Origin: a virus
Direction: 5' to 3' (one strand)
DNA: 64,000 nucleotides
Virus record (IMG/VR): IMGVR_UViG_3300032046_003126
Span: 1-64,000 of that record
In this document: piece after piece, positions 3,888 to 19,764 of the stretch
How the letters are laid out: the number at the start of each line of letters is the position of its first letter
Numbering within the stretch: the first letter of the stretch is position 1
Notes under the pieces: model-generated
Told to the model about the DNA's origin: nothing
The model's input: only the letters and a program-made list of their open reading frames with translations
The model's database searches: none
Position numbers and translations under genes: made by a program

Positions 3888-4889
3888 ATGAAATTATCTG
3901 GATATGTAACTACAAGAAATACTGTTGAAATGGATTATCCAATGGAAGAATCACTTAAATCTCTTTTAGAGTTTTGTGATGAAGTTGTTGTGATGGATTC
4001 TTCAAATGGAAATGATTCTACTAAAGATGTTTTAAGTGATTTAAGAAAACAAAACAATAACTTAAAATTATATACTGCTTCTGTAGATTGGTCTGCGCCT
4101 AATCATGGTGTGTTTGATGGTGCTTTAAAACAAGCCGCAAGAGAGAAATGTACTGGTGATTTCTTATGGCAATCAGATATTGATGAAATAGTAAAAAAAG
4201 AAGATAGAGCTAAATTAGAAGATTTACTTAAACAAACAAATTATCTTAAAGATATACCAATTTTATGTTTGCCCGTTGTTGAATATTGGGGTTCTTATAA
4301 TAAAACAAGAGTAGATGTCAATCCATGGAAATGGAGAGTGTCAAGAAATGACCCAGATATTACGCACGGAATTCCACTTTCTCATAGAAAATACGAAAAT
4401 GGATTTTTATATTCCAAACACGGCTCGGACGGCTGTGATTTTATTTCAAAAACAAATGGTAATCCAATTCAATCTTTGAATTTTATGAATCCACAAATTG
4501 AACAATTAAGAATAGCTGCTTTGCAAAATGAAGAAGCTAGAAAACAATATGAAATTTGGTTTAATCATATTTCATCTAACTTGCCAACCGTTTATCATTA
4601 TTCATGGTTTAGTATAAAGTCTAAAATTGAAAAATACAAATTATTTTGGACAGATTTTTGGCCAGCACTTTATAACGAAACTCAAAAAAATCAAAATATA
4701 TTTTTTGACAATATTCCATGGGAAGATGTTACCGAAGAAATGATTATAGCAAAGGCGAATGAATTAAAAGAAAAATCAGGTGGACATATTTTTCACAAGC
4801 CATGGAATGGGGAATCTACTCCTAGTATTGTTATTCAAAATAATCCTTATGAGTTAATGGAAAAATGGTGTGAAAAACACAAAATATGA
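3888..4889 (+). CDS. GT2-like glycosyltransferase
   Basis: A 333-residue GT-A-fold protein starting after an AAAGGAATAAT leader. The opening MKLSGYVTTRN and the VVVMDSSNGNDST segment match the first nucleotide-binding strands of GT2 enzymes. SDIDEI is the likely DXD-type metal motif. The middle contains a WGSYNKTRVDVNPWKWR segment, and the C-terminal region is rich in aromatic residues, typical of acceptor sites. No membrane segment is seen. It overlaps the next gene by 4 bases (ATGA), so the two should be co-translated. The sugar it transfers cannot be deduced. Confidence 0.7.
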   Translation: MKLSGYVTTRNTVEMDYPMEESLKSLLEFCDEVVVMDSSNGNDSTKDVLSDLRKQNNNLKLYTASVDWSAPNHGVFDGALKQAAREKCTGDFLWQSDIDEIVKKEDRAKLEDLLKQTNYLKDIPILCLPVVEYWGSYNKTRVDVNPWKWRVSRNDPDITHGIPLSHRKYENGFLYSKHGSDGCDFISKTNGNPIQSLNFMNPQIEQLRIAALQNEEARKQYEIWFNHISSNLPTVYHYSWFSIKSKIEKYKLFWTDFWPALYNETQKNQNIFFDNIPWEDVTEEMIIAKANELKEKSGGHIFHKPWNGESTPSIVIQNNPYELMEKWCEKHKI

Positions 4890-5830
4890 AAAAAAATGTG
4901 TTAATAACTGGAGGTGCTGGTTTTATTGGTAGTAATCTATATAAATTATTATCTAAAAATCCAAAATATCATGTTGAACTTGTGGATGATTTATCAGCAG
5001 GTGTTTTTTCAAATATACAAAATGTTTGTGATGAAGATTTTCATTGGTTAAGTTTTGATAGTGAGTTTATAACAAACAGAATAAAAACAAAATTTTACTC
5101 TTATGTGATACATTTAGCAGCCAAACCAAGCGTTCCATATTCTATAGAAAACATATATGATTCTCATGATGTTAATGTTTTTAAAACTCTGAGATTATTA
5201 GAAGCCTGTAAAGGAAATATAGAAAAATTTATTTTTGCGTCTAGTGCAGCAGTATATGGAAAGTCATTTGACTTAAAATGGTCACTTGGAATTCCAGAAA
5301 CAACAAGTCTGCAACCATTGTCTCCATATGCGTTACAAAAATTTGAAATAGAACAATATTTGAACATGATGAAAAATTTATTTTCTTTTGAGTTTTTAAC
5401 TTTTAGATTTTTTAATGTTTATGGACCAAATCAATATGCTGGACATCCATATGCTAATGTGATATCATCTTGGTTGCACAATATCAAACATAATCTTCCT
5501 ATAAGAATTGATGGAGACGGCACACAAAAAAGAGATTTTGTTTTCGTAGAAGATGTTTGTAATATTATAATTTATTCTCTATCAAATAAGTTTAAAAGCA
5601 ATGAATATAATTTAGGAACTGGTACGGTTGTTAGTTGTAACGATGTTCTTAAAAATTTAGAAACAGAATACAAAGATGTAAAAAAAATCTATTCTCCAAC
5701 AAGAATCGGTGACATCTATGAGGCTAAGGCTAATATAGATTTATTAGAAAGTGATTTAAAATATAAATTTATTGATTTTGAAGATGGAATTAAAAATACT
5801 ATAAAATGGTGGAATAATGATTGTAAATAA
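4886..5830 (+). CDS. NAD-dependent sugar-nucleotide epimerase/dehydratase (extended SDR)
   Basis: A 314-residue extended SDR. The Rossmann motif GGAGFIGSN lies near the N-terminus, followed by HLAAKPSVPYS (usual form HLAA-x), the catalytic Ser in FASSAAVYG and the Tyr-Lys pair in SPYALQK. The C-terminal half has RFFNVYGPNQ and DGTQKRDFVFVEDV, conserved in UDP-glucose 4-epimerase-like and related UDP-hexose enzymes. It should interconvert or dehydrate a UDP- or GDP-sugar. It overlaps the preceding transferase by 4 bases and the next gene by 14, so it belongs to the same transcript. Exact substrate unknown; UDP-Glc/UDP-GlcNAc 4-epimerase is one option. Confidence 0.8.
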   Translation: MKKNVLITGGAGFIGSNLYKLLSKNPKYHVELVDDLSAGVFSNIQNVCDEDFHWLSFDSEFITNRIKTKFYSYVIHLAAKPSVPYSIENIYDSHDVNVFKTLRLLEACKGNIEKFIFASSAAVYGKSFDLKWSLGIPETTSLQPLSPYALQKFEIEQYLNMMKNLFSFEFLTFRFFNVYGPNQYAGHPYANVISSWLHNIKHNLPIRIDGDGTQKRDFVFVEDVCNIIIYSLSNKFKSNEYNLGTGTVVSCNDVLKNLETEYKDVKKIYSPTRIGDIYEAKANIDLLESDLKYKFIDFEDGIKNTIKWWNNDCK

Positions 5831-6626
5831 ATTAACAACAATAATATGTTCAAAAAATAGACCAATACAACTGTATGCTTTATTAGAATCTCTAAAAGAT
5901 AAAACAAATATTTCATTTAAAGATGTTAATGTTCTTTGTAAATATGAAAATAAATTTTTGGAATCTTTAATTGAAATAAAAAACACTTTTCCTGATGTGA
6001 ATTTTATTAGTGAGAATAGTTTTAAAAATGATATTTTAGAATTAATAAATGTAACAGATAAAAATTATTTAATGTTTTTGATGGATGATGATGTTATAAA
6101 GGAACAAGTTGACTTTGATGAAATAACAAAATATATGGATGAAAATCCAATTTTTGTATTCTCATTGAGAATGGGCAAGAACCTGAATTATTGTTATCCA
6201 GTAGATAAAAAACAAAGTATTCCTTTTGGATATGATATAGAAAATTATTTCATGTGGAATTTCAGAGAAGGTGAATTTGATTGGAATTACCCACTTAGTT
6301 TAGATGGACACATATTTCAAAAAAACGAATTTGATAAAATTATAAAAATGTTTAATAATTGGAATTCTCCAAATACATTAGAGGCCAACATTCAACCAGC
6401 CAACAACATTATTAATCCTATTTGTGTTTGTTACCAACAATCAAAATTAGTTAATCTTCCAATTAATAAAGTTCAAAATGATTTTAATAATCGTTTTGGG
6501 AATATCTCAGAAGGTTATTTGCTAAATGTTTGGAATGATAAGAAAAAAATAAATCTAGAAAAAATTTATGGATTAAATAATAATGGAGCACATCAAGAAA
6601 TAAGTTTGGAGTTTCTATCTAGATGA
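5817..6626 (+). CDS. Putative GT-A-fold glycosyltransferase
   Basis: A 269-residue protein whose start TTIICSKNRPIQLYALLESL matches the first strand-helix unit of GT2-type transferases. The motif FLMDDDV at about residue 91 is a plausible DXD metal site. The rest is divergent: a region rich in Trp, Tyr and Asn around WNFREGEFDWNYPLSLDGH, then NIQPANNIINPI. Start and end overlap both neighbours (14 and 4 bases). Families of this type are common in phage sugar clusters, but donor and acceptor are not predictable. Confidence 0.6.
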   Translation: MIVNKLTTIICSKNRPIQLYALLESLKDKTNISFKDVNVLCKYENKFLESLIEIKNTFPDVNFISENSFKNDILELINVTDKNYLMFLMDDDVIKEQVDFDEITKYMDENPIFVFSLRMGKNLNYCYPVDKKQSIPFGYDIENYFMWNFREGEFDWNYPLSLDGHIFQKNEFDKIIKMFNNWNSPNTLEANIQPANNIINPICVCYQQSKLVNLPINKVQNDFNNRFGNISEGYLLNVWNDKKKINLEKIYGLNNNGAHQEISLEFLSR

Positions 6627-7360
6627 AAGATAGATATCAAATAATTTTACCTGTTTATAATTGTGAAAAAACAATAATAAGAACTATAAATTCTATCTTA
6701 TATCAAACAGTTTTGGATGAAGAAACATATGAAGATTTCGGATTAACAATTATTGATAATAATTGTACAGACGAAACCATTGAAAAAATTATTAACATGG
6801 GTCATCAAATAAATTCAAAAATAGAATTTGAAATATTAGAATGCGACATAAAAGGAATAGTACCAGCATTAAACACAGGTTTGTTTAATAGTAGATTCTG
6901 TGATTATAGGTATGTTTTCAGACAAGATGGAGATGATCTTTGGTATCCAAACAAGCTTGAAAAACAGATAAATTTTTTAAAAAATAACAAAGATATAAAA
7001 ATCTTAGGAACGCAAATAAGGGCTGTCAATAACACAACACACGAACCTATAAACGAACAAATGAAACGCCCTACAAACGATTCCGAGATTAAACAATGGC
7101 TGTTTGGCAACATGAATCCGTTGGCACATCCCTCGGTTGTTTTTGATAAAGAAATTCTATTAAAAACAGGAGGATATGATGATTTTTTCCCCGTGGCAGA
7201 GGATTATGTTATGTGGTTGAAAGCATCTAAGTGGTTTAAATTTGCAAACCTAGAAGATACACTAGTGGACTACACAGTTAGTCACAATGTTAATTATGAC
7301 CCAAAAGTCGTACAAAAAGCATGTCAATTTTACAAAATATTATATAAACAACTAGGATAA
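6623..7360 (+). CDS. GT2 family glycosyltransferase
   Basis: A 245-residue, clearly GT2-like protein. ILPVYNCEKTI and the following SILYQT segment form the first conserved block; TIIDNNCTDETIE is the nucleotide-binding block. FRQDGDDLWYPNKLEKQI holds the metal-binding D-x-D (DGDD) and the conserved helix after it. NMNPLAHPSVVFDKEIL with GGYDDFFPVAEDYVMWLK fits the GT2 acceptor/catalytic region, where the ED pair supplies the general base. It overlaps the previous gene by 4 bases. It is cytoplasmic, with no transmembrane tail. Confidence 0.85.
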   Translation: MKDRYQIILPVYNCEKTIIRTINSILYQTVLDEETYEDFGLTIIDNNCTDETIEKIINMGHQINSKIEFEILECDIKGIVPALNTGLFNSRFCDYRYVFRQDGDDLWYPNKLEKQINFLKNNKDIKILGTQIRAVNNTTHEPINEQMKRPTNDSEIKQWLFGNMNPLAHPSVVFDKEILLKTGGYDDFFPVAEDYVMWLKASKWFKFANLEDTLVDYTVSHNVNYDPKVVQKACQFYKILYKQLG

Positions 7361-7363
7361 AAA

Positions 7364-7966
7364 ATGATACACTCAACAAATGATTTTTTTAAACACATTA
7401 TAAAAGTTTCTATTTGGTCAGACCCAAGCAGAAGACCAGGGTTTTTTAAGCAATACTGTGAAGGCAAAAATGTACTTCACATGGGTTGTTCGGATGCTCC
7501 GTTTCCATTTAATATACAAACAAGTTTACATTATCAATTAAGTTTATTTTGTAAAAATCTTGATGGATTTGATTTAAATTCGGACAATTTCCCTCAGATG
7601 GCCTCCGCAATTCCAGGAGGATATTTTACTGATACAAATCATTTACATGGACAAAAATGGGATGTTTGTTTAGTTCCAGAAACAATAGAGCATGTAGATA
7701 ACATTAAAGAATTTTGTGAATTTATAAATTCAATTGATGCGAAAACATTTATAATAACAGCGCCAAATGCATTTAATCCAAATAATAAAGAAAATATTTT
7801 ATTAAATGAAAACGAATATCTTGAATGTGTTCACCCTGATCACAAAGTGTGGTTCTCTCCTTATACGTTGACACATTGTATTAGAACATATATGCCTAAA
7901 GTTTCTATAAAACAAGTTTGGTTAATAGAAAAGCAACATATGGTAGCGGTGGTGTTTGAAAAATGA
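7364..7966 (+). CDS. Class I SAM-dependent methyltransferase-like protein
   Basis: A 200-residue protein with a Rossmann-like fold. NVLHMGCSDAPFPF corresponds to the glycine-rich SAM-binding motif I, in a divergent form. GFDLNSDNF supplies the acidic residue at the end of strand 2. WDVCLVPETIEHVDNI matches motif IV, with EH as in many small-molecule methyltransferases, and TFIITAPNAF fits strand 5. It sits within the sugar island, 3 bases after a GT2 gene and overlapping a GT6 gene by 4 bases, so methylation of a sugar or glycan is a reasonable inference. Confidence 0.7.
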   Translation: MIHSTNDFFKHIIKVSIWSDPSRRPGFFKQYCEGKNVLHMGCSDAPFPFNIQTSLHYQLSLFCKNLDGFDLNSDNFPQMASAIPGGYFTDTNHLHGQKWDVCLVPETIEHVDNIKEFCEFINSIDAKTFIITAPNAFNPNNKENILLNENEYLECVHPDHKVWFSPYTLTHCIRTYMPKVSIKQVWLIEKQHMVAVVFEK

Positions 7967-8646
7967 AAATAGGTTTATTAATAATTGCAACCGGAAAATA
8001 CATCCAATTTATTAATCCTTTACAGGAATCTATTAATAAATATTTTATGAAAAATCATGAAGTTACGACATTTGTTTTTACAGATTCAAAAGATTTTATG
8101 TCAAAACCAGGACAAAAAGTGATTTTTCAACAACATATTCCATGGCCTGGTTCTACATTATATAGATATAATATATTCAAAAGTAATGAAAAGAACATTG
8201 AAGAAATGGATTATTTATATTATTGTGATGCAGATATGTTATTTGTTAATGATGTTGGAGATGAAATTTTAGGTGATTTAGTAGCAACACAACATCCTGG
8301 TTTTTATAATAAACCAAGAGAATTATTCACTTACGAAACAAATCCTGAATCAAAAGCGTTTATTCCAAAAGACAAAGGAACAAAATATTTTATAGGTGCA
8401 TTTAATGGCGGCAAAACGTCAGAGTATTTAAAATTAATAACAAAATTAGCTCATAATACATCTTATGATACACGCCGTGGAATTATTGCAGTGTGGCATG
8501 ATGAATCTCACATGAATAGATATTTTATCGATAATGAACCAACTTTAATTTTGAGTCCATCGTATTGTTATCCAGAATTATTAAATATTCCATTTGAACG
8601 AAAATTATTAGCTTTAGATAAAAATCACTCGGAAATAAGAAAATGA
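7963..8646 (+). CDS. Family 6 glycosyltransferase (ABO/alpha-1,3-Gal(NAc) transferase family)
   Basis: A 227-residue catalytic domain without the membrane stem of animal enzymes. It carries many GT6 signatures: YYCDADMLFVNDV with the metal-binding DXD (Asp89, Asp91), ATQHPGFYNKPRELFTYE, SKAFIP, FIGAFNGGKTSEYL and WHDESHMNRYFI, then LSPSYCYPE. GT6 includes the human ABO transferases and alpha-1,3-galactosyltransferase, plus bacterial members that usually have NXN in place of DXD; a cyanophage member with DXD is known. The reaction is retaining transfer of Gal or GalNAc in alpha-1,3 linkage to a galactoside, often a fucosylated one. That fits the GDP-deoxyhexose genes nearby, though the actual acceptor is unknown. 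It overlaps the upstream methyltransferase by 4 bases. Confidence 0.88.
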   Translation: MKIGLLIIATGKYIQFINPLQESINKYFMKNHEVTTFVFTDSKDFMSKPGQKVIFQQHIPWPGSTLYRYNIFKSNEKNIEEMDYLYYCDADMLFVNDVGDEILGDLVATQHPGFYNKPRELFTYETNPESKAFIPKDKGTKYFIGAFNGGKTSEYLKLITKLAHNTSYDTRRGIIAVWHDESHMNRYFIDNEPTLILSPSYCYPELLNIPFERKLLALDKNHSEIRK

Positions 8647-8752: not shown

Positions 8753-9616
8753 ATGAGAAAAATATTAATATTTGGTGGAACAGGGATGATGGGAAGCATG
8801 TTGACTTCTTATCTTTTAAAAAGTGGTTGTAATATAACAATCACTTCAAGAAAACATTTAGATATACCTAATGTTGAAGTTATAGTGTTTGATGCAGAAA
8901 ATCAAAAAATACCAGATGTATCTGAATTTGATTGGATTATAAATTGTATTGGTATTATAAAACAAAGAAATCCATCTGATTGTAAAAAATATTATCAAAT
9001 AAATTCCATGTTTCCTTGGAAACTTCTAAACAAAGTTAATTTATATAATAAAAAATTAATACATATTTCTTCTGATTGTATATTTGATGGAATTTTAGAC
9101 GGCAATGAATCATATAATGTTTATGACATTCCTACAGCAACAGATGACTATGGATATTCAAAAGCACTAGGTGAGCCCGAAGGATGTATTGTGTTAAGAA
9201 CAAGTATAATAGGACCATCTAAAAGTGATTCGCTGGGGTTATTTGAATGGTTTAGAAATAATAAAGAAGAAATAATTTATGGATATAAACATTTCTGGTC
9301 TGGTGTAACAACATTAGAATTATCTAAAGTTATTGAAAAAATATTAACAAACAATTACTATCCCTCCAGAGATACAAAAAACATTTATCAAGTTTCTTTA
9401 AATGAGAGTATTTTTAAAACAACTCTTCTACAATATATAAATAAAATTTATAATCTTAAAAAAACAATTTCTAATAAAATTGCAGAAAATCCAAGTCACC
9501 AAATCATAAACAGAGGATTAAAAAATAATTTAAATGAATTATGTAACATACAAATAAAAGATATAAAAATACAATTACAAGAATTGAAAGAATGGGAAGA
9601 TAATGAAAAAAGTTAA
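8753..9616 (+). CDS. RmlD-like NAD(P)-dependent sugar-nucleotide reductase
   Basis: A 287-residue protein of the RmlD substrate-binding family. The Rossmann motif GGTGMMGSMLTSYLL is followed by FDWIINCIGIIKQ, HISSDCIFDGI (catalytic Ser-x2-Asp region) and YGYSKALGE, the Tyr-x3-Lys pair. VLRTSIIGPS and FWSGVTTLELSKVIE match the substrate half. Family members reduce 4-keto sugar nucleotides, such as dTDP-4-keto-rhamnose or the UDP-linked intermediate of L-FucNAc synthesis. A CapD/PseB-like dehydratase lies two genes downstream, so the pair could form a 6-deoxy-HexNAc branch. It overlaps the next gene by 14 bases. Confidence 0.8.
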   Translation: MRKILIFGGTGMMGSMLTSYLLKSGCNITITSRKHLDIPNVEVIVFDAENQKIPDVSEFDWIINCIGIIKQRNPSDCKKYYQINSMFPWKLLNKVNLYNKKLIHISSDCIFDGILDGNESYNVYDIPTATDDYGYSKALGEPEGCIVLRTSIIGPSKSDSLGLFEWFRNNKEEIIYGYKHFWSGVTTLELSKVIEKILTNNYYPSRDTKNIYQVSLNESIFKTTLLQYINKIYNLKKTISNKIAENPSHQIINRGLKNNLNELCNIQIKDIKIQLQELKEWEDNEKS

Positions 9617-10451
9617 AATATATTCAATACATTACAACAGACCAGATTTTATAGGTTGGCAATATGATAGTTTTAATAAATTCTTAAAAGTGAAAGATGG
9701 ATTTGAATTAATTATTGTAAATAATGCAAGAGATAATTTAATAAGAAATGAAATAAATAAAACTTGTAATTCTTATAATTTGAGAGTAATTGAAACACAC
9801 TCGGATACCCCATTTCATTTAGCTGGTAAACATCATGCTGATTCTTTAAATCATGTATGGAAAAATTATATTTGTAAAGATGATTTTGCTATGTTTTGTG
9901 ATGGTGATCTTTTTATGATTAAAGAATTTCATGTAGATAACTTTATGAAGGATGACCTTATAGCTGGTGCATATCAACATAGAGAACAAAAATATGAATA
10001 TCTTGCCCCAGTAATAGTTTTTATAAAACCAACAAAAATACCCGAACCTGAAACAATAGATTGGGAAGGTATTGGTGTTAACGGAATACGCTTAGACACT
10101 GGTGGTGGAATATATAATTATTATCTAAATCATCCTGAAGTAAAACAAAAAACAAAGCGTATATTGAATTCTTGGCACATTAAAAATGAAAATAATAATC
10201 TATTGGTGTTACCAGATGAAATAATAGAGTTATATAATGATTCATACAATATAGAATTTTTTGGAAATGAATTTCTACATTATTGTAGAAGTAGTAATTG
10301 GGACCATGAATCCGAACAACATCATTTAAAGAAAACAAATTTCGTACAATTGTTTGTATATGGATGTATAGAAAACAAAATTAACGCAAAAGAACATAAT
10401 TTTCAGATGCTTAATGATTATTATTTTGGTTGGGGCAAGATAGAAAAATGA
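9603..10451 (+). CDS. Putative GT-A-fold glycosyltransferase
   Basis: A 282-residue protein. KIYSIHYNRPDFIGWQYDSF and FELIIVNNARDN follow the GT-A opening pattern of a strand, an Arg/Asn-Pro turn and a second strand ending in acidic residues. AMFCDGDLFMI holds a D-x-D (DGD) metal motif. HLAGKHHADSLNHVW before it is rich in His. After it LDTGGGIYNYYL and GNEFLHYCRSSNWDHES are likely donor or acceptor loops. It overlaps both neighbours, showing operon membership. The specificity is unknown. Confidence 0.6.
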   Translation: MKKVKIYSIHYNRPDFIGWQYDSFNKFLKVKDGFELIIVNNARDNLIRNEINKTCNSYNLRVIETHSDTPFHLAGKHHADSLNHVWKNYICKDDFAMFCDGDLFMIKEFHVDNFMKDDLIAGAYQHREQKYEYLAPVIVFIKPTKIPEPETIDWEGIGVNGIRLDTGGGIYNYYLNHPEVKQKTKRILNSWHIKNENNNLLVLPDEIIELYNDSYNIEFFGNEFLHYCRSSNWDHESEQHHLKKTNFVQLFVYGCIENKINAKEHNFQMLNDYYFGWGKIEK

Positions 10452-11437
10452 CAACATTAATTTTTGGCGGAGCAGGTTCTTTAGGAACTGAATTAACAAA
10501 ATATATATTAAATAATTTTGTTAATGAACTTATTTATGTTGCTTCAAGAGATGAAGCTAAACATTGGGATTTGAAAAACAAATTTCAAAATAATCAAAGA
10601 ATACAAACATATATTTGCGATGTTAGAGATAAAAATAGAGTCAATCAAATAATACTTGCTTTAAAACCTGAAAGAATTATTATAGCTCAAGCACTTAAAC
10701 AAGTAGATACTTGTGAAAAATTTCCAGAGGAAAGTATTGACACGAATATCTTAGGTATGAGAAATATTTTAGATTCTATAAGAGAATTGTCTTTAATGAA
10801 TGTTTATAAACCAACCGAGGTTTGTTTTGTATCAACGGACAAAAGTTGCAACCCAATTAATGTATATGGGATGTGTAAAAGTATTGCAGAAAAAATGGTT
10901 TCAAATTTATCTCAATTTTTTGAAGATCAAAATATAGATACTAAATTTATTATTACAAGATATGGTAACGTTTTATCTTCTAAGGGAAGCATTATTCCTT
11001 TGTATATGAAGCAAGCCACAGATCCAAATATAGATTTTTTTGGAGTAACACATACAGACATGACAAGATTTATTATGACTCTAGAAGAATCTGTTGAACT
11101 TATTTTTTATGCGTTAAAAAACGGAAGAAACGGAGAGCTTTGGGTTCCTAAACTTCCTTCAATGAAAATAATCGATTTAGCTGAGGTATTTTCAGATCTA
11201 TTTGGAAAAAAAATTAAAACCATTGGGATAAGACCTGGAGAAAAAGTACACGAAGTAATGTTGAACGAAGAAGAATATAGAAATTCTACTGAAGAAAACA
11301 AATATTTTGTTGTTAAAAAACAACCTAAAACAACTAAAGTTATTTATAAAGAATATTCATCAAAAGATACAATATCAAAAGACGAATTGAAAGAAAAGAT
11401 AATAACATTTTTAAAAGATAATGAGTATATAAAATGA
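10448..11437 (+). CDS. CapD/PseB-like UDP-N-acetylhexosamine 4,6-dehydratase
   Basis: The ATG at 10448 overlaps the preceding stop (ATGA) and gives 329 residues; an in-frame TTG at 10430 is a less likely start. The N-terminal IFGGAGSLGTELTKYIL is the Rossmann motif. Characteristic family blocks follow: ALKQVDTCEKFPEE, NILGMRNIL, VSTDKSCNPINVYGMCK (catalytic Thr-Asp and Tyr-x3-Lys), ITRYGNVLSSKGS, then TDMTRFIMTLEESVELI and IRPGEKVHEVML. These fit single-domain inverting or retaining UDP-GlcNAc 4,6-dehydratases (PseB, FnlA/WbjB). The product would feed a 6-deoxy-amino sugar. With the RmlD-like gene upstream, L-FucNAc-type synthesis is one possibility. Confidence 0.85.
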   Translation: MTTLIFGGAGSLGTELTKYILNNFVNELIYVASRDEAKHWDLKNKFQNNQRIQTYICDVRDKNRVNQIILALKPERIIIAQALKQVDTCEKFPEESIDTNILGMRNILDSIRELSLMNVYKPTEVCFVSTDKSCNPINVYGMCKSIAEKMVSNLSQFFEDQNIDTKFIITRYGNVLSSKGSIIPLYMKQATDPNIDFFGVTHTDMTRFIMTLEESVELIFYALKNGRNGELWVPKLPSMKIIDLAEVFSDLFGKKIKTIGIRPGEKVHEVMLNEEEYRNSTEENKYFVVKKQPKTTKVIYKEYSSKDTISKDELKEKIITFLKDNEYIK

Positions 11438-12372
11438 CATTTAACAAAGTAATAGTTTGGGGTCACAAGCTTGGCGACCCACGTTTATCAAATACATTCA
11501 GTTTTATCCATGATTCCTGGAATAAAACATTTTCGTATTTGGGTTATGAAACATTGTGGTTAGATAATAATGACGATATTTCTAATATTAATTTCAATAA
11601 TTGTTTATTCTTAACAGAAGGACAAGTAGATCAAAAAATGCCAGTTAACAATACATCTAAATATGTATTGCATCATTGTAATTTAGACAAATATAATTCT
11701 ATTATTGGTAATTGTTTAAATTTACAAGTTTACACAAAAGATTGTTCGTTTAGAAAAGTCCAAAAAATGGACGAACCATTAACTTATTATCAACCAGAAC
11801 CCAATAATGAAACATGGCAAGATGGTTGTAACAATAGGACATTATATCAAACATGGGCAACAAATCTTTTACCGCACGAAATAAATGCTGATGATTTAAT
11901 TAAAAAAACACATGGTGTAACAAAACATAATAAACTTTATTGGGTTGGTTCTATATGCGATGGAAGACAAGGCAACATTACAGAACTACAAGAATTAATT
12001 CAAGCTTGTACTAAAAGAAATATAAGTTTTGTTCATGCCAAATTATCAAATGACAAACAACCAAGTGCAATACAGTTATCAAAAATTTCTCCTGCAATTC
12101 AAGGACATTGGCAAGTTGAAAACCATTATGTTCCATGTAGAGTTTATAAAAATATTTCATTTGGAAGAATGCCACTTTCAAACAACGAAATAATTTGTAG
12201 TTTATTTGATAATCAAATCATTTATGATAATAATATAGAAAATTTAATCGAAAAAGGAATGCAATTTGAAGCAAGCAATACATATACACAAGTTATGACA
12301 AAATTAATAAACGAAGTAAAAGAAAAACATACCTATGTGAGCAGAATTAATTCAATATTAAAAGTCATCTGA
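11434..12372 (+). CDS. Putative GT-B-like glycosyltransferase, divergent
   Basis: A 312-residue protein with an ATGA overlap to the gene before. The N-terminal half begins KVIVWGHKLGDPRLSNTF and has the strand-turn rhythm of a nucleotide-sugar transferase. The second half contains LYWVGSICDGRQGNI and SPAIQGHWQVENHYVPCRVYKNISFGRMPLS; the Pro-Arg-Tyr-Lys segment followed by FGRMPLS resembles the donor loops of fucosyltransferase-like or GT-B enzymes, where SYG precedes the phosphate-binding turn. Function is inferred mainly from this fold resemblance and from its place among transferases. Confidence 0.45.
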   Translation: MTFNKVIVWGHKLGDPRLSNTFSFIHDSWNKTFSYLGYETLWLDNNDDISNINFNNCLFLTEGQVDQKMPVNNTSKYVLHHCNLDKYNSIIGNCLNLQVYTKDCSFRKVQKMDEPLTYYQPEPNNETWQDGCNNRTLYQTWATNLLPHEINADDLIKKTHGVTKHNKLYWVGSICDGRQGNITELQELIQACTKRNISFVHAKLSNDKQPSAIQLSKISPAIQGHWQVENHYVPCRVYKNISFGRMPLSNNEIICSLFDNQIIYDNNIENLIEKGMQFEASNTYTQVMTKLINEVKEKHTYVSRINSILKVI

Positions 12373-12373
12373 A

Positions 12374-13192
12374 ATGAAAAATCTTATTATCGGTAACACA
12401 TCACAATTCAGTCATTATATGAATGATTCTGATAATATATTTTTATCTTCAAGAGAGAAAAACATAAAAGAATATAAAAAACAAAATTGGAATAAAGTTT
12501 TTTTATGTTTTGGAGAATCTAGAAAATTTATTGATGATCAAACACAATATGAAAAAATTAATTATAGTTTATCTAAACACTATATAAATTCTTTTAAAGA
12601 TAATTCGGAATATATTTATGTTTTTTCTACATGTGAATTGTGGAACAAACATTCTGGCCAAATTAGTTTAGAACTTCCAAAAGATCATTGGGATACATCA
12701 TATCTTAATTCTAAAAGAAAATTATCAGATTTTATTTTATTAGAACAGACAAAAAATAAATTAAATAATGTAAAAATAATTTATCCATTTAATTTTAATT
12801 CACCATTTAGAAATAAAAATTTTTTGTTCGGAAAAATTTATAATTCTATATTAAATAAAGAAAAAATATCAATAGGAAATACATATTTTTATAGAGACAT
12901 GATTAGTCCTTCTTATTTTGTAAAAGAAATATTAAACACATACGAACATAAAATAATTGGGTCAGGTCGTATGATTTTTGTAAATGACTTTATAAGAGAT
13001 TTATATAAATCATTTAATTTAGAATATGAAAATTTTGTTACCGAGGAATCAAATAAATTTAATGAATATTCTATAAATAAAGAATATTATCTTAAAACAA
13101 ACAGATGTTTACAAAATTATTCGGAACTATTATCTGATACAACAATAGATTTAAAAAACTTTTCAAACAGTAAGAAAGAAAGAAAATTATGA
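12374..13192 (+). CDS. Degenerate SDR-like protein
   Basis: A 272-residue protein that follows the SDR epimerase outline but has lost key motifs. The N-terminal strand NLIIGNTSQFSHYM lacks the GxxGxxG dinucleotide motif. VFSTCELW replaces the usual Ser-containing strand, and a Tyr/Lys pair (SYLNSKRKLSDFIL) is arranged like the Y-x3-K helix. NFNSPFRNKNFLFGKIYNSI and a FYRDMISPSYFVKEIL segment match the substrate-binding half of RmlD/epimerase proteins. It may be a non-NAD-binding partner or an enzyme decaying after duplication. It lies 1 base after the previous gene and overlaps the next by 4. Confidence 0.45.
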   Translation: MKNLIIGNTSQFSHYMNDSDNIFLSSREKNIKEYKKQNWNKVFLCFGESRKFIDDQTQYEKINYSLSKHYINSFKDNSEYIYVFSTCELWNKHSGQISLELPKDHWDTSYLNSKRKLSDFILLEQTKNKLNNVKIIYPFNFNSPFRNKNFLFGKIYNSILNKEKISIGNTYFYRDMISPSYFVKEILNTYEHKIIGSGRMIFVNDFIRDLYKSFNLEYENFVTEESNKFNEYSINKEYYLKTNRCLQNYSELLSDTTIDLKNFSNSKKERKL

Positions 13193-13884
13193 AAAATTTT
13201 GGATATTTTAAACCAACAGACCCAACATTAGATGGTTTGCGTTTTGGCAATTGGGGTTCAAGACCATATGAATATTATTGGGCAGCAACAATTTTAGATG
13301 CCAAAGATAAAACTGTTCTTGATTTAGGAATAGGTTCACCCTCGGAACATAATTGGTATGATTTTGTCACTAATGTAATGAAAACAAAATTATATTGTGG
13401 AATCGATTTTGATGAAAGACTCAAAACAGAAACAATAGACACAGATAACTGTAAAGTCCAGTGGATGGATATGACGGATTTAAAATTTGATAATGATAAA
13501 TTTGATATTGTCTATTGTATTAGTACTTTCGAACACTTTGAAAAAGAAGAATTGTTCTTGGAAAGTATAAAGGAAGCTCATAGGGTATGTAAAAAAGATG
13601 GATTGATGGTTGTTACATTAGATGAACTTTGGAACAAAGACAATAAAGATCCTATATATTCTGCATGGAATGAATTAGAAAAAATTCTAATAAAAAATAA
13701 TCATTATGATAATTCCAATATTAGTTTTGGAATGAAAGATTTTATTAATCTAGTATCAAATTATTTTGAACCATTAGAATTTAAAACAACAGAGATAGAA
13801 AAAGCAAATTCAGATGAAAGTTTATTACATAGTAAAATTTGGAATAGTGTGGTAAGTTATGGAATTTTCAAAGTTAAAAAATAA
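13189..13884 (+). CDS. Class I SAM-dependent methyltransferase
   Basis: A 231-residue protein with clear methyltransferase motifs: TVLDLGIGSPSEHNW (motif I), CGIDFDERL (acidic end of strand 2), VQWMDMTDLKFDNDKFDIVYCISTFEHF (motifs II to IV) and LMVVTLDELWNK (strand 5). It resembles small-molecule and sugar methyltransferases of the methyltransferase-11 type. Island membership suggests methylation of a nucleotide sugar or a glycan end. It overlaps both neighbours (4 and 26 bases). Confidence 0.8.
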   Translation: MKNFGYFKPTDPTLDGLRFGNWGSRPYEYYWAATILDAKDKTVLDLGIGSPSEHNWYDFVTNVMKTKLYCGIDFDERLKTETIDTDNCKVQWMDMTDLKFDNDKFDIVYCISTFEHFEKEELFLESIKEAHRVCKKDGLMVVTLDELWNKDNKDPIYSAWNELEKILIKNNHYDNSNISFGMKDFINLVSNYFEPLEFKTTEIEKANSDESLLHSKIWNSVVSYGIFKVKK

Positions 13885-14800
13885 AAAATTATTAATCACT
13901 GGCGGAAATGGATTATTAGGAAAAACATTTCAATCAAAAAATATAGACTATAAGATTTATGCTCCTTCGTCAAAAGAGTGCAATCTTTTTATTAAAGATG
14001 ATATAAAAAATTATATTAGAAATACTAATCCTGATTTTGTAGTTCATTGTGCCTGTAAAGTCGGAGGAATACAAGCGAATATATTAAATCAATTTGAATT
14101 TGGACATTCTAATATGTTAATGTATTTAAATCTATTAAGTTCTTTAAAAGAACTAAACATTTCATGTAAAATCCTAAACATAGGAAGTTCTTGTATGTAT
14201 CCTCGAAACAGTGTTCAACCTTTAAAAATAGAATACTTAGGTATTGGAGAACTTGAACCAACGAATGAGAGTTATGGATTTGCAAAATTATTTGGTACTA
14301 AATTGTGCCAACATTTATCTGATGATAAATCTAATAATTTAGAATTAAAAACGCTTATAGCACCAAATCTTTATGGTCCTTTTGATAAATTTAATGAAGA
14401 TGCTCATTTAATACCAGCAGTAATTAAAAAAATAGATAATAAAAAAAATGAAGATTTAGCATTATTACCAGCACAACCAACTGAAATTAGAAGAGAATTT
14501 ATGTTTTCTGAGGATTTTGCTGACGCCATGTGGTTTTCAATTAATAATTGGGAAAAAATACCAAGTATTTTGAATGTAGGAATAGGATGTGATTTTTCTA
14601 TTAAAGAATATTATGATATAATTGCAAATGTTCTAGGTGTAAAAGTAGAATACTCTGATTACGATCACAGTATGCCTAAAGGAATGAAACAAAAATTATT
14701 AGATTCGTCTGACGCATTTAAAATTGGAATTTATCCAAAAACTTCTTTAAAAGAAGGCATTGAAAAAACATATAAATATTATTTGGAGAATATTAAGTGA
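13859..14800 (+). CDS. GDP-L-fucose synthase / GDP-L-colitose synthase-like epimerase-reductase
   Basis: A 313-residue extended SDR with hallmark GDP-fucose synthase (Fcl/WcaG) blocks: LLITGGNGLLGKTF, CACKVGGIQANI, NIGSSCMYPRNSVQPLK (catalytic Ser), ELEPTNESYGFAKLFG (Tyr-x3-Lys), LIAPNLYGPFDKFNEDAHLIPAVI and TEIRREFMFSEDFADAM. Fcl epimerises C3 and C5 of GDP-4-keto-6-deoxymannose and reduces C4 to give GDP-L-fucose. The homologous ColC does the C5 epimerisation and reduction on the 3-deoxy intermediate to give GDP-L-colitose. A ColD-like gene directly follows with an overlap, so a ColC role is attractive, but the sequence does not separate the two. Confidence 0.85.
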   Translation: MEFSKLKNKKLLITGGNGLLGKTFQSKNIDYKIYAPSSKECNLFIKDDIKNYIRNTNPDFVVHCACKVGGIQANILNQFEFGHSNMLMYLNLLSSLKELNISCKILNIGSSCMYPRNSVQPLKIEYLGIGELEPTNESYGFAKLFGTKLCQHLSDDKSNNLELKTLIAPNLYGPFDKFNEDAHLIPAVIKKIDNKKNEDLALLPAQPTEIRREFMFSEDFADAMWFSINNWEKIPSILNVGIGCDFSIKEYYDIIANVLGVKVEYSDYDHSMPKGMKQKLLDSSDAFKIGIYPKTSLKEGIEKTYKYYLENIK

Positions 14801-15978
14801 AGAAAATAGAATACAAATTAGCATCAATCACTTGGGATCAAAAAGAATATGATGTATTAGAACAAGTTATTAAATTTGGAAAATTTACCATGGGAGATAA
14901 TGTTAAAAAATGTGAAGAAAATTTTGCTGAATATGTGAAATCAAAATATTGTGTTATGGTAAATTCTGGAAGTTCTGCAAATTTACTAATGGTTGCAGCT
15001 TTACAATATAGAAAATCTTTTAAAAGAAAAAAAAATCCTCTGGTAATTGTACCAGCAGTTAGTTGGGCAACAACATATTACCCTTTTCATCAATATGGCT
15101 ATAGGTTAAAGTTTGTTGATATTGATTTAAAAACATTAAATTATAATCTTGTTGATTTAAAAAATGCGTTCAAAGAAGAAACTCCAGATATATTAATGTG
15201 TGTAAATCTCTTAGGTAATTCAAATGATTTTGATGAAATAAAATCAATTATTGGAAATACCGATACCATTCTTTTAGAAGATAATTGTGAATCTATGGGT
15301 GCTTTATATAAAGATAAACAATGTGGAACAATTGGATTAATGGGAACGTTTAGTACATTTTTTAGCCATCATATAAATACAATGGAAGGCGGGTTTGTAG
15401 TAACTGATGATGAGGAGTTATATCATATAGTATTATCTTTAAGAGCACACGGTTGGACAAGAAATTTACCTGATGAAAACCACGTCTCGGGTACAAAATC
15501 CAAAGATTGGTTTATAGAATCATATAATTTTATTTTACCAGGATACAATGTAAGACCACTTGAAATGAGCGGAGCTTTAGGAATAGAACAAATAAAAAAA
15601 TTACCAAACTTGTTGAAACAAAGAAGAAAAAATGCTAAATATTTCATTGAAAAAATGAAAGAAATTGATTTTATTCAAATTCAAGAAGAAACAGACAATT
15701 CAAATAGTTCTTGGTTTGGATTTTCTTTAATTTTAAAAGATTCCTATTCTAGAAAAAAATTAATTAATTTATTAGATAAACACAACATAGAATGTAGACC
15801 TATTGTTGCAGGTAATTTTTTTAGAAATCCTGTTGTAAAACATATGAAATGTAAAAAATATAATAAATTAATTAATGCAGATTGTGTTAATGACAATGGT
15901 TTATTTATTGGAAATCATCACTTTGAAATAACAAAAGAAATTGATTATTTAGTTGATGTTTTAAAATTATATAAATAA
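14797..15978 (+). CDS. ColD-like PLP-dependent sugar 3-dehydrase (DegT/StrS fold, catalytic Lys replaced by His)
   Basis: A 393-residue DegT/DnrJ/EryC1/StrS-family protein starting with GTG that overlaps the previous stop (GTGA). VNSGSSANLLMVAAL, VIVPAVSWATTYYP, LLEDNCESMGALY and LPGYNVRPLEMSGALGIEQ are family blocks. At the PLP site, aminotransferases have Lys six residues before the Glu of EGG; here FFSHHINTMEGG has His191 there. The same swap occurs in ColD (GDP-4-keto-6-deoxymannose 3-dehydrase) and RfbH (E1), which remove the C3 hydroxyl. The length fits ColD (about 390 aa), and the adjacent genes encode GDP-mannose 4,6-dehydratase and an Fcl/ColC-like reductase. The likely product route is a GDP-3,6-dideoxyhexose such as colitose. 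Confidence 0.8.
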   Translation: MKKIEYKLASITWDQKEYDVLEQVIKFGKFTMGDNVKKCEENFAEYVKSKYCVMVNSGSSANLLMVAALQYRKSFKRKKNPLVIVPAVSWATTYYPFHQYGYRLKFVDIDLKTLNYNLVDLKNAFKEETPDILMCVNLLGNSNDFDEIKSIIGNTDTILLEDNCESMGALYKDKQCGTIGLMGTFSTFFSHHINTMEGGFVVTDDEELYHIVLSLRAHGWTRNLPDENHVSGTKSKDWFIESYNFILPGYNVRPLEMSGALGIEQIKKLPNLLKQRRKNAKYFIEKMKEIDFIQIQEETDNSNSSWFGFSLILKDSYSRKKLINLLDKHNIECRPIVAGNFFRNPVVKHMKCKKYNKLINADCVNDNGLFIGNHHFEITKEIDYLVDVLKLYK

Positions 15979-16051: not shown

Positions 16052-18268
16052 ATGATAAATAAACAAAAAACAGCAATAATTTCTGGAATAACAGGACAAG
16101 ATGGAAGTTATTTAGCAGAACTTTTACTTGAAAAAGGTTATAAAGTAATCGGAATTAAAAGAAGAACTTCTCTGTTAAACGCACATGAGAGATTAGATTC
16201 ATTTTATAATAATAAAAATTTAGAATTAGTATATGGAAATATGCATGATGCTTCTTCTATCTTTAGTATTATAAACAAATATAAACCAGATGAATTTTAT
16301 AATCTCGCAGCGCAATCTCATGTAAAAGTCTCTTTTGAAGTAACCGAAGAAACTTTGGATACTGTTGCAAAAAGCACATTAAGAATTCTTAATGCAATTA
16401 AAGAATTATCTCCACATACAAGATTCTATCAGGCGTCATCCTCAGAAATGTATGGAACGGCACCGTGTCCAACAACTGGTTATACTGAAGACAGTATCAT
16501 GCTGCCTGCTTCACCGTATGCGGCTGCAAAACTGTTTGGACATAATATAGTAAAAAATTATAGAAATTCTTATGGGCTTCATGCTTCTTCGGGAATTTTG
16601 TTCAACCACGAAACTTTAGGTGGTTTTATGCCTCTTGTTTTTAAAACTAGTGAAACAACAAATTTAATTGATATAAAACCAATATCTGAAATTGTAAAAT
16701 ATCATACTAAAAATGAAAATATTCCATCAATAAATGAAGATTTGGAAAAATATCAAGAAACAAATGTTGATACTGATTTGTATGTTTGGGATAAAGAAAA
16801 ATGGACAAAAGTTTTATATGCGTCTGGATATCCCCATTTAATTAAAGAAGACAACAAGAGACCAAAATTTATTATTTCAAAAAAATCAGCAGTATTTGCA
16901 ACAGGGAATCATCATCATATTATGGATGACGGGACAGAGAAAGAATTTTCAAATATAAAAATCGGTGATAAGGTTAGTTTGGTAAAATCTTTTCCAGATA
17001 TTGATGAAAGTAAAAATTTAACTATTGAAGAAGCAAATTTGATTGGTTTTATTGTTGGTGATGGATATTGTAAAAAACAAAAAAACAAAAACAATTATAA
17101 TTTAAAACTCATATCAAAAAATAAAGAAGAATTAGAAAAATATAAAAAAATTTGGGATTCGTTGAATAAAACTTCAAATTATTATCATGGTAAATCTGGT
17201 TTTAATCCTTTACAAAAAATTTGGCATTTAACATTAAATCAATCTACGCAATGGGTAGAAGAAAAAATACCAGATTTATATACAGAAACAAATTATAAAA
17301 GAATTCCGAAAATAATTTTAAATTCAAACAAAAACATTATGCAGGCATTTCTTGAAGGCTATAATGATGCTGATGGATTGAAAAAAAATAATTGTATTTA
17401 TGAATTTAAAAATTTTAAAACAAACTCTGCTACTCTTGCTCTTGGGCTATTGTTTTTGATTGAAAAAACAACAAAACAAAAATGCAATATTAACGTTGAG
17501 CATGTTTTTAAATTTAATAAATGGAATCTTTATTATTCTATAAATTTGTTATCAAACACAAATCGTTCATTGGAAAATAGTAAAACAAAATATGAATTGG
17601 TTAAAAGATTATTAGATAATAAAACTTCAATTAGAAAAATCAATAGAGATACAAAAATTTCACGTAAAACAATACAAAAAATTAAAAAAGGATATATTCC
17701 AAGTGGAAAACATCATTTTGCTAAAAATGAGAATGAAGTAAAAAAAATTATTGAAATACCAAATTATAATGGTTGGTTTTATGACCTTACAACCGAATCG
17801 GGTACATTTCATGCTGGTATAGGAAATGGACATGTTCATAATAGTCCGCGACGCGGAGAGACATTTGTAAGTCGTAAAATTTCAATTGCTGCCGCTAGAA
17901 TAAAAACAGGTGTTCAAGATAAATTATATTTAGGAAATTTAGATGCTTGTAGAGATTGGGGTTATGCAGATGATTATGTGTATGGTATGTATTTAATGCT
18001 TCAACAAGAAAAACCAGATGATTATGTGTTAGCAACAGGAGAAACCCACACGGTTAGAGAATTTTTAGAAGAAACATTTAAACTTGCTGGTCTTGATATA
18101 GACAAATGCGTAGAAATTGATTCTAGGCTCTTTAGACCAGAAGAGGTTCCTTACCTACTAGGAGACGCTTCCAAGGCAAATAAAGCCATTGGCTGGCTAC
18201 CAAAAGTAAAGTTTAAAGAGTTGGTTGAAGTGATGTATGAACACGAGATAGAAAACATATTGAAATAG
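16052..18268 (+). CDS. gmd: GDP-mannose 4,6-dehydratase precursor, interrupted by an intein
   Basis: A 738-residue precursor with 328 residues of GDP-mannose dehydratase split after residue 187. Extein motifs are SGITGQDGSYLAELLLEKGY (NADP binding), YNLAAQSHVKVSFE, QASSSEMYG (Ser/Thr and Glu of the active site) and SPYAAAKLF (Tyr-x3-Lys). The insertion lies inside the family's highly conserved NHE-SPRRGETF motif; removing residues 188-597 restores it exactly. The enzyme makes GDP-4-keto-6-deoxymannose, the precursor of GDP-fucose, colitose, perosamine and rhamnose. It follows the ColD-like gene after 73 bases and has an AGAGG ribosome binding site. Catalytic activity should require protein splicing. 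Confidence 0.93.
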   Translation: MINKQKTAIISGITGQDGSYLAELLLEKGYKVIGIKRRTSLLNAHERLDSFYNNKNLELVYGNMHDASSIFSIINKYKPDEFYNLAAQSHVKVSFEVTEETLDTVAKSTLRILNAIKELSPHTRFYQASSSEMYGTAPCPTTGYTEDSIMLPASPYAAAKLFGHNIVKNYRNSYGLHASSGILFNHETLGGFMPLVFKTSETTNLIDIKPISEIVKYHTKNENIPSINEDLEKYQETNVDTDLYVWDKEKWTKVLYASGYPHLIKEDNKRPKFIISKKSAVFATGNHHHIMDDGTEKEFSNIKIGDKVSLVKSFPDIDESKNLTIEEANLIGFIVGDGYCKKQKNKNNYNLKLISKNKEELEKYKKIWDSLNKTSNYYHGKSGFNPLQKIWHLTLNQSTQWVEEKIPDLYTETNYKRIPKIILNSNKNIMQAFLEGYNDADGLKKNNCIYEFKNFKTNSATLALGLLFLIEKTTKQKCNINVEHVFKFNKWNLYYSINLLSNTNRSLENSKTKYELVKRLLDNKTSIRKINRDTKISRKTIQKIKKGYIPSGKHHFAKNENEVKKIIEIPNYNGWFYDLTTESGTFHAGIGNGHVHNSPRRGETFVSRKISIAAARIKTGVQDKLYLGNLDACRDWGYADDYVYGMYLMLQQEKPDDYVLATGETHTVREFLEETFKLAGLDIDKCVEIDSRLFRPEEVPYLLGDASKANKAIGWLPKVKFKELVEVMYEHEIENILK
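16613..17842 (+). mobile_element. Intein with LAGLIDADG endonuclease inside GDP-mannose 4,6-dehydratase (410 aa)
   Basis: The boundaries are set by the GMD motif NHE|SPRRGE. The first intein residue is Thr (TLGGFMPLVFK), followed by Ser as the +1 extein residue. The N-terminal splicing block B has FATGNHHHI (T-x2-H). Two dodecapeptides, LIGFIVGDGY (intein residue about 143) and FLEGYNDADGL (about 246), mark a LAGLIDADG homing endonuclease. A helix-turn-helix-like stretch (RDTKISRKTIQKIKKGYIPS) precedes the C-terminal blocks GWFYDLTTESGTFHAG and GHVHN, which end in the His-Asn pair needed for cyclisation. Thr at position 1 is unusual, since Cys or Ser is normal. The element is otherwise intact and probably mobile. 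Confidence 0.92.
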
Positions 18269-18351: not shown

Positions 18352-19764
18352 ATGAGTTTTAATCCAAGTTCAATAGGAATAAATTTACCAAAAGAAAAAA
18401 AGAAGATATTAGTATTATCTGATCATGTGTTATCACCAAGTGGAGTCGGAGTCCAAACTCTTGCACTAATAAATGGTTTAATTCAAACAGGCAAATATAC
18501 TTTTAAGTCTTTGGGCGGCGCGATTAAACATGGTAATTATGATGTAATGAAACCACATCCAGATTTAGAAATAAAACCTGTAGATGGATTTGGCAGCAAA
18601 GAACAGTTAAGAAAATTACTATTAACTGAGCAGCCTGATGCCATTTTAATGGTAACTGATCCTAGACAATTTGTTTGGGTTTGGGAAATGGAGGATGAGA
18701 TAAGACAAGTGTGTCCGATAACATACTGGCATGTGTGGGATAATGACCCATACCCAGATTTTAATGGAGTATGGTATCGTTCTACAGATTTAATAAATTG
18801 TCTTTCATGGAAAACATTTGAATTAGTTAAACCAAATTTTCCTGAGAAAACAAATTATATTCCACATGCTTTTCCTAAAGAGCAATATTTTCCAATGTCA
18901 GACGAACAAATACAGACATTAAAAGTTCAACACTTTGGAGACAAAGCAGATTGGTTTAAAGTATTATGGGTTAATAGAAATGCGACAAGAAAGTTGCCTG
19001 CTGATGTTATGGCTTGTTGGAAAGAATTTCTAGATGAATTAGAAAAAAAATATGGTCACAGAAAAGCTTTATTAGTAATGCATACAGATCCAGCAGATAT
19101 GGAAGGGCCAAATCTATATGCTGTAAATGAAATGTTGAAAATAAATGAAAATGTTATGTTTTCAGTAGACAAACTTCAGGCTAATCACATGAATATGTTG
19201 CACAACATAACAGATACAATTATAAATATAGCAAAAGCTGAAGGTTTTGGTTTAAGTACTTTAATTTCCATGATGGTTGGAAAGCCAATAATTGCTTTAT
19301 GTACTGGAGGAGAAACCAGACAAGTAATTGACTGGAGAGATGGTAGCGAAAATGGCGTCGCAATACAACCTGCTTCTAGACAAATGGTTGGTTCACAAAT
19401 GGTTCCTTATATTTATGAAGATTTTTCTTCTCATAAAGATGTCGTTGAAGGATTTATGAAAATTTTTGACATGACAAGTGAAGAAAAAATTAACATGAAA
19501 AGGAAAGTTTTAGATTATGTTGATTTTGAATTTTCATATCAAAATATGATAAACTCTTGGGATTCTACATTATCTACTTGTATTAATAATTTCAATAATA
19601 CAAAAGGTTCAAAGTGGACATTTCAACAAATTGAAGCATCAAAGTTTAATAATAAAAATAAAGAAGCTATTATAGAAAATTCCGATCAAACTAAAAATAT
19701 TCAACATCCTATAGATGCAACAAGTGAAATTTTAAAATCTATAAAAATCATAGAGGAAATTTAA
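18352..19764 (+). CDS. GT4-like glycosyltransferase
   Basis: A 470-residue GT-B-fold protein. The N-terminal domain starts ILVLSDHVLSPSGVGVQTLALINGL, where the Gly-rich segment is the GT4 acceptor-side loop. ITYWHVWDNDPYPDFNG has the aromatic and acidic residues common in phage-type GT4 proteins. The C-terminal domain opens KVLWVNRNATRKLPAD, the R/K phosphate-binding site, and ends with the donor motif AKAEGFGLSTLISMMVGKPII, a good E-x7-E-type block. The last about 70 residues are low-complexity and lysine-rich. It has its own ribosome binding site and possible promoter; the next gene, another transferase, starts 2 bases later. Confidence 0.85.
   Translation: MSFNPSSIGINLPKEKKKILVLSDHVLSPSGVGVQTLALINGLIQTGKYTFKSLGGAIKHGNYDVMKPHPDLEIKPVDGFGSKEQLRKLLLTEQPDAILMVTDPRQFVWVWEMEDEIRQVCPITYWHVWDNDPYPDFNGVWYRSTDLINCLSWKTFELVKPNFPEKTNYIPHAFPKEQYFPMSDEQIQTLKVQHFGDKADWFKVLWVNRNATRKLPADVMACWKEFLDELEKKYGHRKALLVMHTDPADMEGPNLYAVNEMLKINENVMFSVDKLQANHMNMLHNITDTIINIAKAEGFGLSTLISMMVGKPIIALCTGGETRQVIDWRDGSENGVAIQPASRQMVGSQMVPYIYEDFSSHKDVVEGFMKIFDMTSEEKINMKRKVLDYVDFEFSYQNMINSWDSTLSTCINNFNNTKGSKWTFQQIEASKFNNKNKEAIIENSDQTKNIQHPIDATSEILKSIKIIEEI

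Follow-up and report, generated by a model that had tools for sequence, protein, structure and literature searches.

We found that a tailed phage encodes a family 6 glycosyltransferase (GT6) with a DXD motif and catalytic residues in place, within a glycan cassette that most likely includes a predicted GDP-L-colitose gene set. The DNA analysed, hereafter the window, comprises positions 1 to 64,000 of an 87,181-base virus record (IMG/VR IMGVR_UViG_3300032046_003126). In the proposed mechanism the enzyme would be soluble and metal-dependent and would act as a retaining alpha-1,3-galactosyl- or N-acetylgalactosaminyltransferase, with the DXD motif holding Mn2+/Mg2+ and the UDP-sugar and with E181 as the catalytic Glu. 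It would add a terminal or branching sugar to an oligosaccharide made by the cassette at about 3.9–20.9 kb. The cassette would also supply activated sugars, most likely GDP-L-colitose (through GMD, ColD and an Fcl/ColC-like enzyme), and the glycan would most likely remodel the infected host surface, for example by blocking superinfection or hiding the cell. This explanation as a whole, joining metal-dependent Gal/GalNAc transfer, colitose supply and host-surface remodelling, is modestly favoured; within it, we infer UDP-Gal as the donor, the metal dependence, colitose on the acceptor and the biological role.

Genomic context

The window is from a tailed phage, with the markers being a baseplate wedge protein (24961–26805), a phage-type primase and an SbcC-like protein. 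The baseplate protein was about 32 % identical to proteins of Microcystis and Flavobacterium phages. The cassette contains GT2-, GT4- and orphan GT-like ORFs, SDR enzymes, methyltransferases and nucleotide-sugar genes (Table 1). The candidate GT-A-like ORF 5817–6626 is conserved in the sister phages described below. Homologues of ORF 9603–10451 were present at 54 GT6 loci and those of ORF 11434–12372 at 35, with none of either at the control loci.

Table 1. Features of the glycan cassette and of the GT6 gene, with the evidence for each assignment
Feature	Position	Strand	Evidence
GT2-like glycosyltransferase; in sister phages L002, L181, L006	3888..4889	+	PF00535 E 3e-4, under cut-off
NDP-sugar epimerase/dehydratase (GalE-like SDR)	4886..5830	+	PF01370 E 1.1e-48; equivalog cut-offs missed
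Candidate GT-A-like glycosyltransferase	5817..6626	+	DDD by eye; no Pfam match; homologues in 8 GT6 loci
GT2 glycosyltransferase	6623..7360	+	PF00535 E 2.9e-18
Methyltransferase-like (weak, by eye)	7364..7966	+	No Pfam match; 4-bp overlap with GT6 start
GT6 glycosyltransferase, 227 aa, ATG start	7963..8646	+	Pfam PF03414; PDB relatives BoGT6a, ABO
DXD codons, D89 A90 D91	8227..8235	+	Aligned with BoGT6a N95-A-N97, ABO-type D-V-D
Donor tripeptide I144-G145-A146 (ABO codons 266–268)	8392..8400	+	Alignment, census
E181 (in WHDE), equivalent to BoGT6a E192 / ABO E303	8503..8505	+	Alignment
RmlD-like reductase	8753..9616	+	PF04321 E 2.4e-15
Candidate GT-A-fold glycosyltransferase	9603..10451	+	AlphaFold pLDDT 86.7; Foldseek best matches GT6 structures, TMq about 0.4
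UDP-GlcNAc 4,6-dehydratase-like (PseB/FnlA type)	10430..11437	+	PF02719 E 7.3e-77; PseB 254.8 bits, below cut-off 407.75
GT-B-fold glycosyltransferase	11434..12372	+	AlphaFold pLDDT 92.6; GT-B matches, Z about 17
ORF without family, SDR-like by eye	12374..13192	+	No Pfam match; no homologue in compared loci
Methyltransferase	13189..13884	+	PF08241 E 1.2e-10
GDP-fucose-synthase-like / ColC-like epimerase-reductase	13859..14800	+	NF047922 202 bits, below cut-off 500; PDB best match GDP-L-fucose synthase
ColD orthologue (GDP-4-keto-6-deoxymannose 3-dehydratase)	14797..15978	+	2gms ColD/WbdK 490 bits; His at residue 191
GDP-mannose 4,6-dehydratase with LAGLIDADG intein	16052..18268	+	PF16363 E 2.8e-111, two stretches; PF14528; gmd 398.9 bits, cut-off 415
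GT4-like glycosyltransferase	18352..19764	+	PF00534 E 7.3e-5, under cut-off
GT4-like glycosyltransferase	19767..20942	+	PF00534 E 1.2e-6

Identity and catalytic residues of the GT6 enzyme

ORF 7963–8646 is a GT6-family member carrying DXD and the catalytic residues. An earlier note on this DNA had assigned it to GT6, and the profile and structure searches agreed: it matched PF03414 (Glyco_transf_6) at 175.5 bits (cut-off 25, E 1.6e-51), and the closest solved structures were BoGT6a (4ayj, E 4.3e-52) and ABO transferases (E about 6e-45). The score against NCBIfam NF041524 (family 6 glucosyltransferase subfamily) was below the cut-off, at 233.1 versus 250 bits. The DXD that the note had read as DAD was likewise confirmed, with D89-A-D91 aligning with NAN in BoGT6a and DVD in ABO. 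WHDE is intact with the catalytic Glu E181, the C-terminal Lys (K220) and the Arg at K+6 (R226) are present, and the ABO-type acceptor-side HPGFY is retained. Retaining alpha-1,3 transfer of Gal or GalNAc is predicted for the enzyme.

Passages of PMC3961637 already describe GT6 in cyanophages, and the window enzyme is a new member. Kinship with phage GT6 was supported. The enzyme of Prochlorococcus phage P-SSM2 (PSSM2_268), at 44.6 % identity, is like other cyanophage GT6 and the window enzyme in being phage-borne, having DXD and lying within a glycosyltransferase cassette. P-SSM2 has a GT11 gene 1.4 kb upstream and the tripeptide AGG, whereas IGA, a lack of GT11 and a predicted colitose gene set distinguish the window from it. 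BoGT6a of Bacteroides ovatus (4ayj, 4ayl) shares the family, the length class, WHDE and HPGFY, but has NXN and is metal-independent according to passages of PMC3961637, whereas the window enzyme has DXD. The vertebrate ABO A/B transferases share DXD, WHDE, the Lys and the Arg at K+6, and the window tripeptide is near their B-type MGA; the window enzyme differs in having no membrane anchor or stem and in its phage origin, and its donor and acceptor are putative.

We infer that the window enzyme is metal-dependent because of its DXD motif and of passages of PMC3961637, in which a DXD-bearing bacterial GT6 (Parachlamydia) needs Mg2+/Mn2+. The same passages state that an Arg at the alpha3GT R365 position accompanies most metal-dependent GT6. 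This Arg at K+6 was present in 129 of 147 DXD rows and in none of nine NXN rows, but it is no strict marker, since 10 of the 13 named-phage rows lack it despite having DXD. For the donor, passages of PMC6351642 indicate that ABO codons 266–268 steer specificity, with LGG/AGG in A-type and MGA in B-type enzymes, and IGA is not among the tripeptides tested in those passages. IGA was found in the window enzyme and in none of the 120 viral ORFs, 114 of which have AGG. The nearness of IGA to B-type MGA suggests UDP-Gal as the donor of the window enzyme, and AGG suggests UDP-GalNAc for most phage GT6.

Distribution of DXD and phylogeny of the family

To compare motifs across the family, a main set of 134 GT6 ORFs was assembled, comprising the window ORF, 120 ORFs from 116 IMG/VR loci and 13 from 13 phage records. 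All 134 carry DXD. Part of this set was gathered with sequence patterns containing the DXD stretch and is biased to DXD; the 80 loci gathered with patterns lacking that stretch also all have DXD (motif stretches, by eye). The motif-pattern search of IMG/VR kept 80 of 271 relatives. For named phages, 17 of 71 records with a GT6 match were examined, most of the others listed being near-copies of ACG-2014f. Four later phage records, outside the main set, were split between two DXD and two NXN; the latter (L235 and L236) are short human-fecal scaffolds marked UNVERIFIED and are outside the tree. The 24 genome and plasmid rows, in which one locus is counted three times, included 13 with DXD, nine with NXN and two gapped at the motif. 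A scan of IMG/VR with BoGT6a found no relative, a single-protein query of this kind reaching close relatives only. GT6 was present in three of 395 bacterial genomes, all of one phylum and one of them the centre of the census itself, which is too few for frequencies.

DXD is normal in phage GT6 (134/134 in the main set) and does not set the window enzyme apart. On this point the interpretation in the earlier note was not supported, unlike its GT6 assignment, DXD, phage kinship and GDP-deoxyhexose genes. The motif was also rejected as an indication of animal-like origin, since the phage and viral GT6 in the main set all share it.

The phylogenetic placement that the note had proposed as a check was made in an unrooted GT6 tree of 98 rows, from which near-copies above 85 % identity and the short rows L169 and L178 were dropped; L179, a doubtful GT6 without WHDE, was kept. 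The window grouped with the IMG/VR rows L002 and L181 (100/81), and this group adjoined a Verrucomicrobiaceae MAG row (97/84). The nine NXN rows, including BoGT6a, all fell into a single clade (99/92) that adjoined the cyanophage QGC clade (99/96). NXN is likely a derived state in GT6, short of proof in a tree that has no root and in which the vertebrate row occupies a long branch (2.01). The placement of that row is unsure, and so no claim on animal origin is made. In Gastranaerophilales MAGs (L172–L176) the GT6 has NXN, the unusual tripeptide MSG, and EW.KL in place of HPGFY.

Association with GT11 and the putative acceptor

The GT6 loci were searched with a profile constructed from cyanophage GT11 sequences, which matched at 88 of 116 viral loci and all 13 phage loci, compared with none of 80 viral control loci. 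After removal of near-copies the counts were 48/65 viral and 11/11 phage loci, or 59/76 in total, versus 0/40 controls (Fisher p 6e-18). The control loci were viral loci chosen by ColD-like genes, a different gene, with other flank lengths (8 versus 6 kb), so the contrast gives no calibrated rate and is taken as a strong hint of GT11–GT6 pairing in phages. GT11 lay immediately upstream of GT6 in 8 of 13 named phages and was present in two of the four later records. GT11 was likewise present at each of the nine deduplicated viral GT6 loci that have a ColD-like gene. In cyanophage ACG-2014f, GMD, SDR, a His-type dehydratase, GT11 and GT6 follow one another, with two small ORFs ahead of GT6; its 'hypothetical protein' at L225 3240–4433 is this dehydratase, a sugar 3-dehydratase nearest to ColD (177.6 bits).

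The 87-kb window record, perhaps a fragment, gave no match to PF01531 (GT11) even at E 10 and none to the cyanophage GT11 profile, and a scan of the cassette ORFs for the HxRRxD motif was negative. The near relatives G407, G408, G412 and G413 had no GT11 at E 0.001. An A/B-antigen-type cassette, in the sense of GT11 near GT6, is absent from the window's record, and an H-type acceptor is therefore putative in this clade. GT11 is the enzyme that would ordinarily make such an acceptor, and the alpha-1,3 linkage to a fucose- or colitose-bearing galactose that the note had suggested is likewise putative. A GT11 hidden in the window was considered and rejected; the predicted folds of two orphan ORFs were GT-B (11434) and GT-A (9603), with no fucosyltransferase assignment among the families in the structure-match lists.

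These absences bear on whether the GT6 acceptor lacks a fucose or colitose branch altogether, for example being plain galactose as for alpha3GalT, with colitose on another residue. We regard this as quite plausible, if somewhat short of an even chance. Besides the missing GT11, 5 kb and six ORFs separate GT6 from the colitose genes, and in the GT11-less relatives G412 and G413 (loci L184 and L180) GT6 has few cassette genes nearby. Against it, most phage GT6 loci have GT11, and the window keeps the ABO-type HPGFY on the acceptor side. For the colitosyl or fucosyl step, the GT-B-fold ORF 11434–12372 may tentatively be put forward as the leading candidate, though a weak one. Among the deduplicated viral and phage loci, its relatives were present at 5 of the 17 that lack GT11 and at 9 of the 59 that have it. 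According to passages of PMC11987014, WbgN belongs to GT11 and can transfer either colitose or fucose, from GDP-Col or GDP-Fuc.

Host surface or virion

The most likely role of the glycan would be a change of the host surface, with decoration of the virion itself, by glycans on the phage tail or capsid, as the main rival. A review (PMC2984593) relays a suggestion that P-SSM2 uses its 24 LPS genes to modify the surface of its host and thereby stop other phages. Virion decoration is consistent with the position of the glycan genes a few kb upstream of the tail and baseplate genes and with the large lectin-like proteins downstream, but the combination of nucleotide-sugar synthesis with many glycosyltransferases resembles host-type surface polysaccharide clusters, and we consider it rather unlikely. 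The ORFs searched included no lipid-carrier or export genes, and neither location is strongly favoured as a result. The downstream proteins, at 28393–31806 and 32724–35246 among the tail genes, match Laminin_G_3 (ConA-like lectin) and are possible glycan-binding adhesins.

Predicted colitose gene set and sister phages

The earlier note had pointed to nearby GDP-deoxyhexose genes, and their identity can be sharpened by the ColD orthologue at 14797–15978. This ORF scored 490 bits against ColD/WbdK (2gms) and 170 against the next kind, a CDP-type enzyme, and 190 of 309 aligned columns were identical to ColD (61 %). In the alignment His replaces the PLP Lys, and ColD is the closest among solved DegT-fold enzymes. 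The RfbH/CDP-4-keto-6-deoxyglucose 3-dehydrase model NF011936 was missed (244.4 versus 423). The ORF lies between GMD and the Fcl/ColC-like gene, which it overlaps by 4 bp; the latter gene fails its equivalog cut-off and keeps a family likeness in which Fcl and ColC are indistinguishable. Together the three genes are most likely a predicted GDP-L-colitose set. No INPHARED phage record matched the window ColD at E 1e-60, and its IMG/VR relatives were more distant, the best at 56 %.

The E. coli O55/O111-type colitose pathway consists of Gmd, ColD/WbdK and ColC, and the window likewise has GMD, ColD and Fcl/ColC-like genes adjacent. It differs from that pathway and its GT11 WbgN in being phage-borne, in having no GT11 in the record and in the intein in GMD. 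By eye, this intein is inserted between FNHE and SPRRGETF, begins with Thr and ends in HVHN before Ser; inteins starting with Thr are unusual.

The cassettes of the sister phages L002 and L181 both run GT2-like, GT-A (5817), GT2, (ORF), GT6, RmlD, GT-A (9603), PseB/FnlA, GT-B (11434) and methyltransferase, followed by a fused Fcl-GMD protein of 671–672 aa, without ColD or GT11. At the position of the fusion the window has Fcl/ColC, ColD and GMD as three ORFs, and ORF 12374–13192 is extra ahead of the methyltransferase. The simplest reading of this comparison would be a fucose/colitose swap within one cassette. That the deoxyhexose is instead GDP-L-fucose, with another job for the ColD-like protein, is improbable: the Fcl-like gene retains GDP-fucose synthase residues by eye and the sister phages have Fcl-GMD, but the identity to ColD, the gap in bit scores and the catalytic His all stand against it, and the question leans clearly towards colitose. 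The natural Fcl-GMD fusion of the sister phages, which joins GDP-fucose synthase to GDP-mannose dehydratase within a single ORF, lies at L239 537–2549 (−) and L240 1103–3118 (+).

Implications for GT6 and phage-encoded glycans

Within the limited library of literature searched, no paper dealt with GT11–GT6 pairing or colitose synthesis in phages. As far as searched, the GDP-colitose set beside GT6, the sister-phage swap and the systematic GT11–GT6 pairing are new. The phage may rebuild host surface sugars during infection through an ABO-related enzyme and probable colitose synthesis, and a phage with a colitose pathway provides a case in which a virus's choice of host-surface sugars can be tested, the sister cassettes offering a natural fucose/colitose swap.

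A wider and speculative generalization, which is unlikely to hold in full, is that phages widely encode ABO-type antigen lines (GT11 then GT6), that some have swapped fucose for colitose, and that NXN is derived. If true, such lines bring their own GDP-deoxyhexose genes, the window lineage is among those in which colitose took the place of fucose while the rest of the cassette stayed conserved, and the antigens on infected cells or virions would be colitose-type and B-like; the NXN enzymes of bacteria, which are metal-independent, would form one derived branch of a DXD family borne mostly by phages. GT6 enzymes synthesize the A, B, Forssman and alpha-Gal antigens, and the origin of the family is debated. 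The large and diverse phage DXD pool and the single clade of NXN bacteria are new data on that origin.

Elsewhere in the window, an IMP dehydrogenase/GMP reductase-family gene is present at 1889–2902, with homologues in the related loci L002, L037 and L004, and a DUF7487/homing-endonuclease-like ORF at 58646–60610 (phrog_3339, E 1.7e-118).
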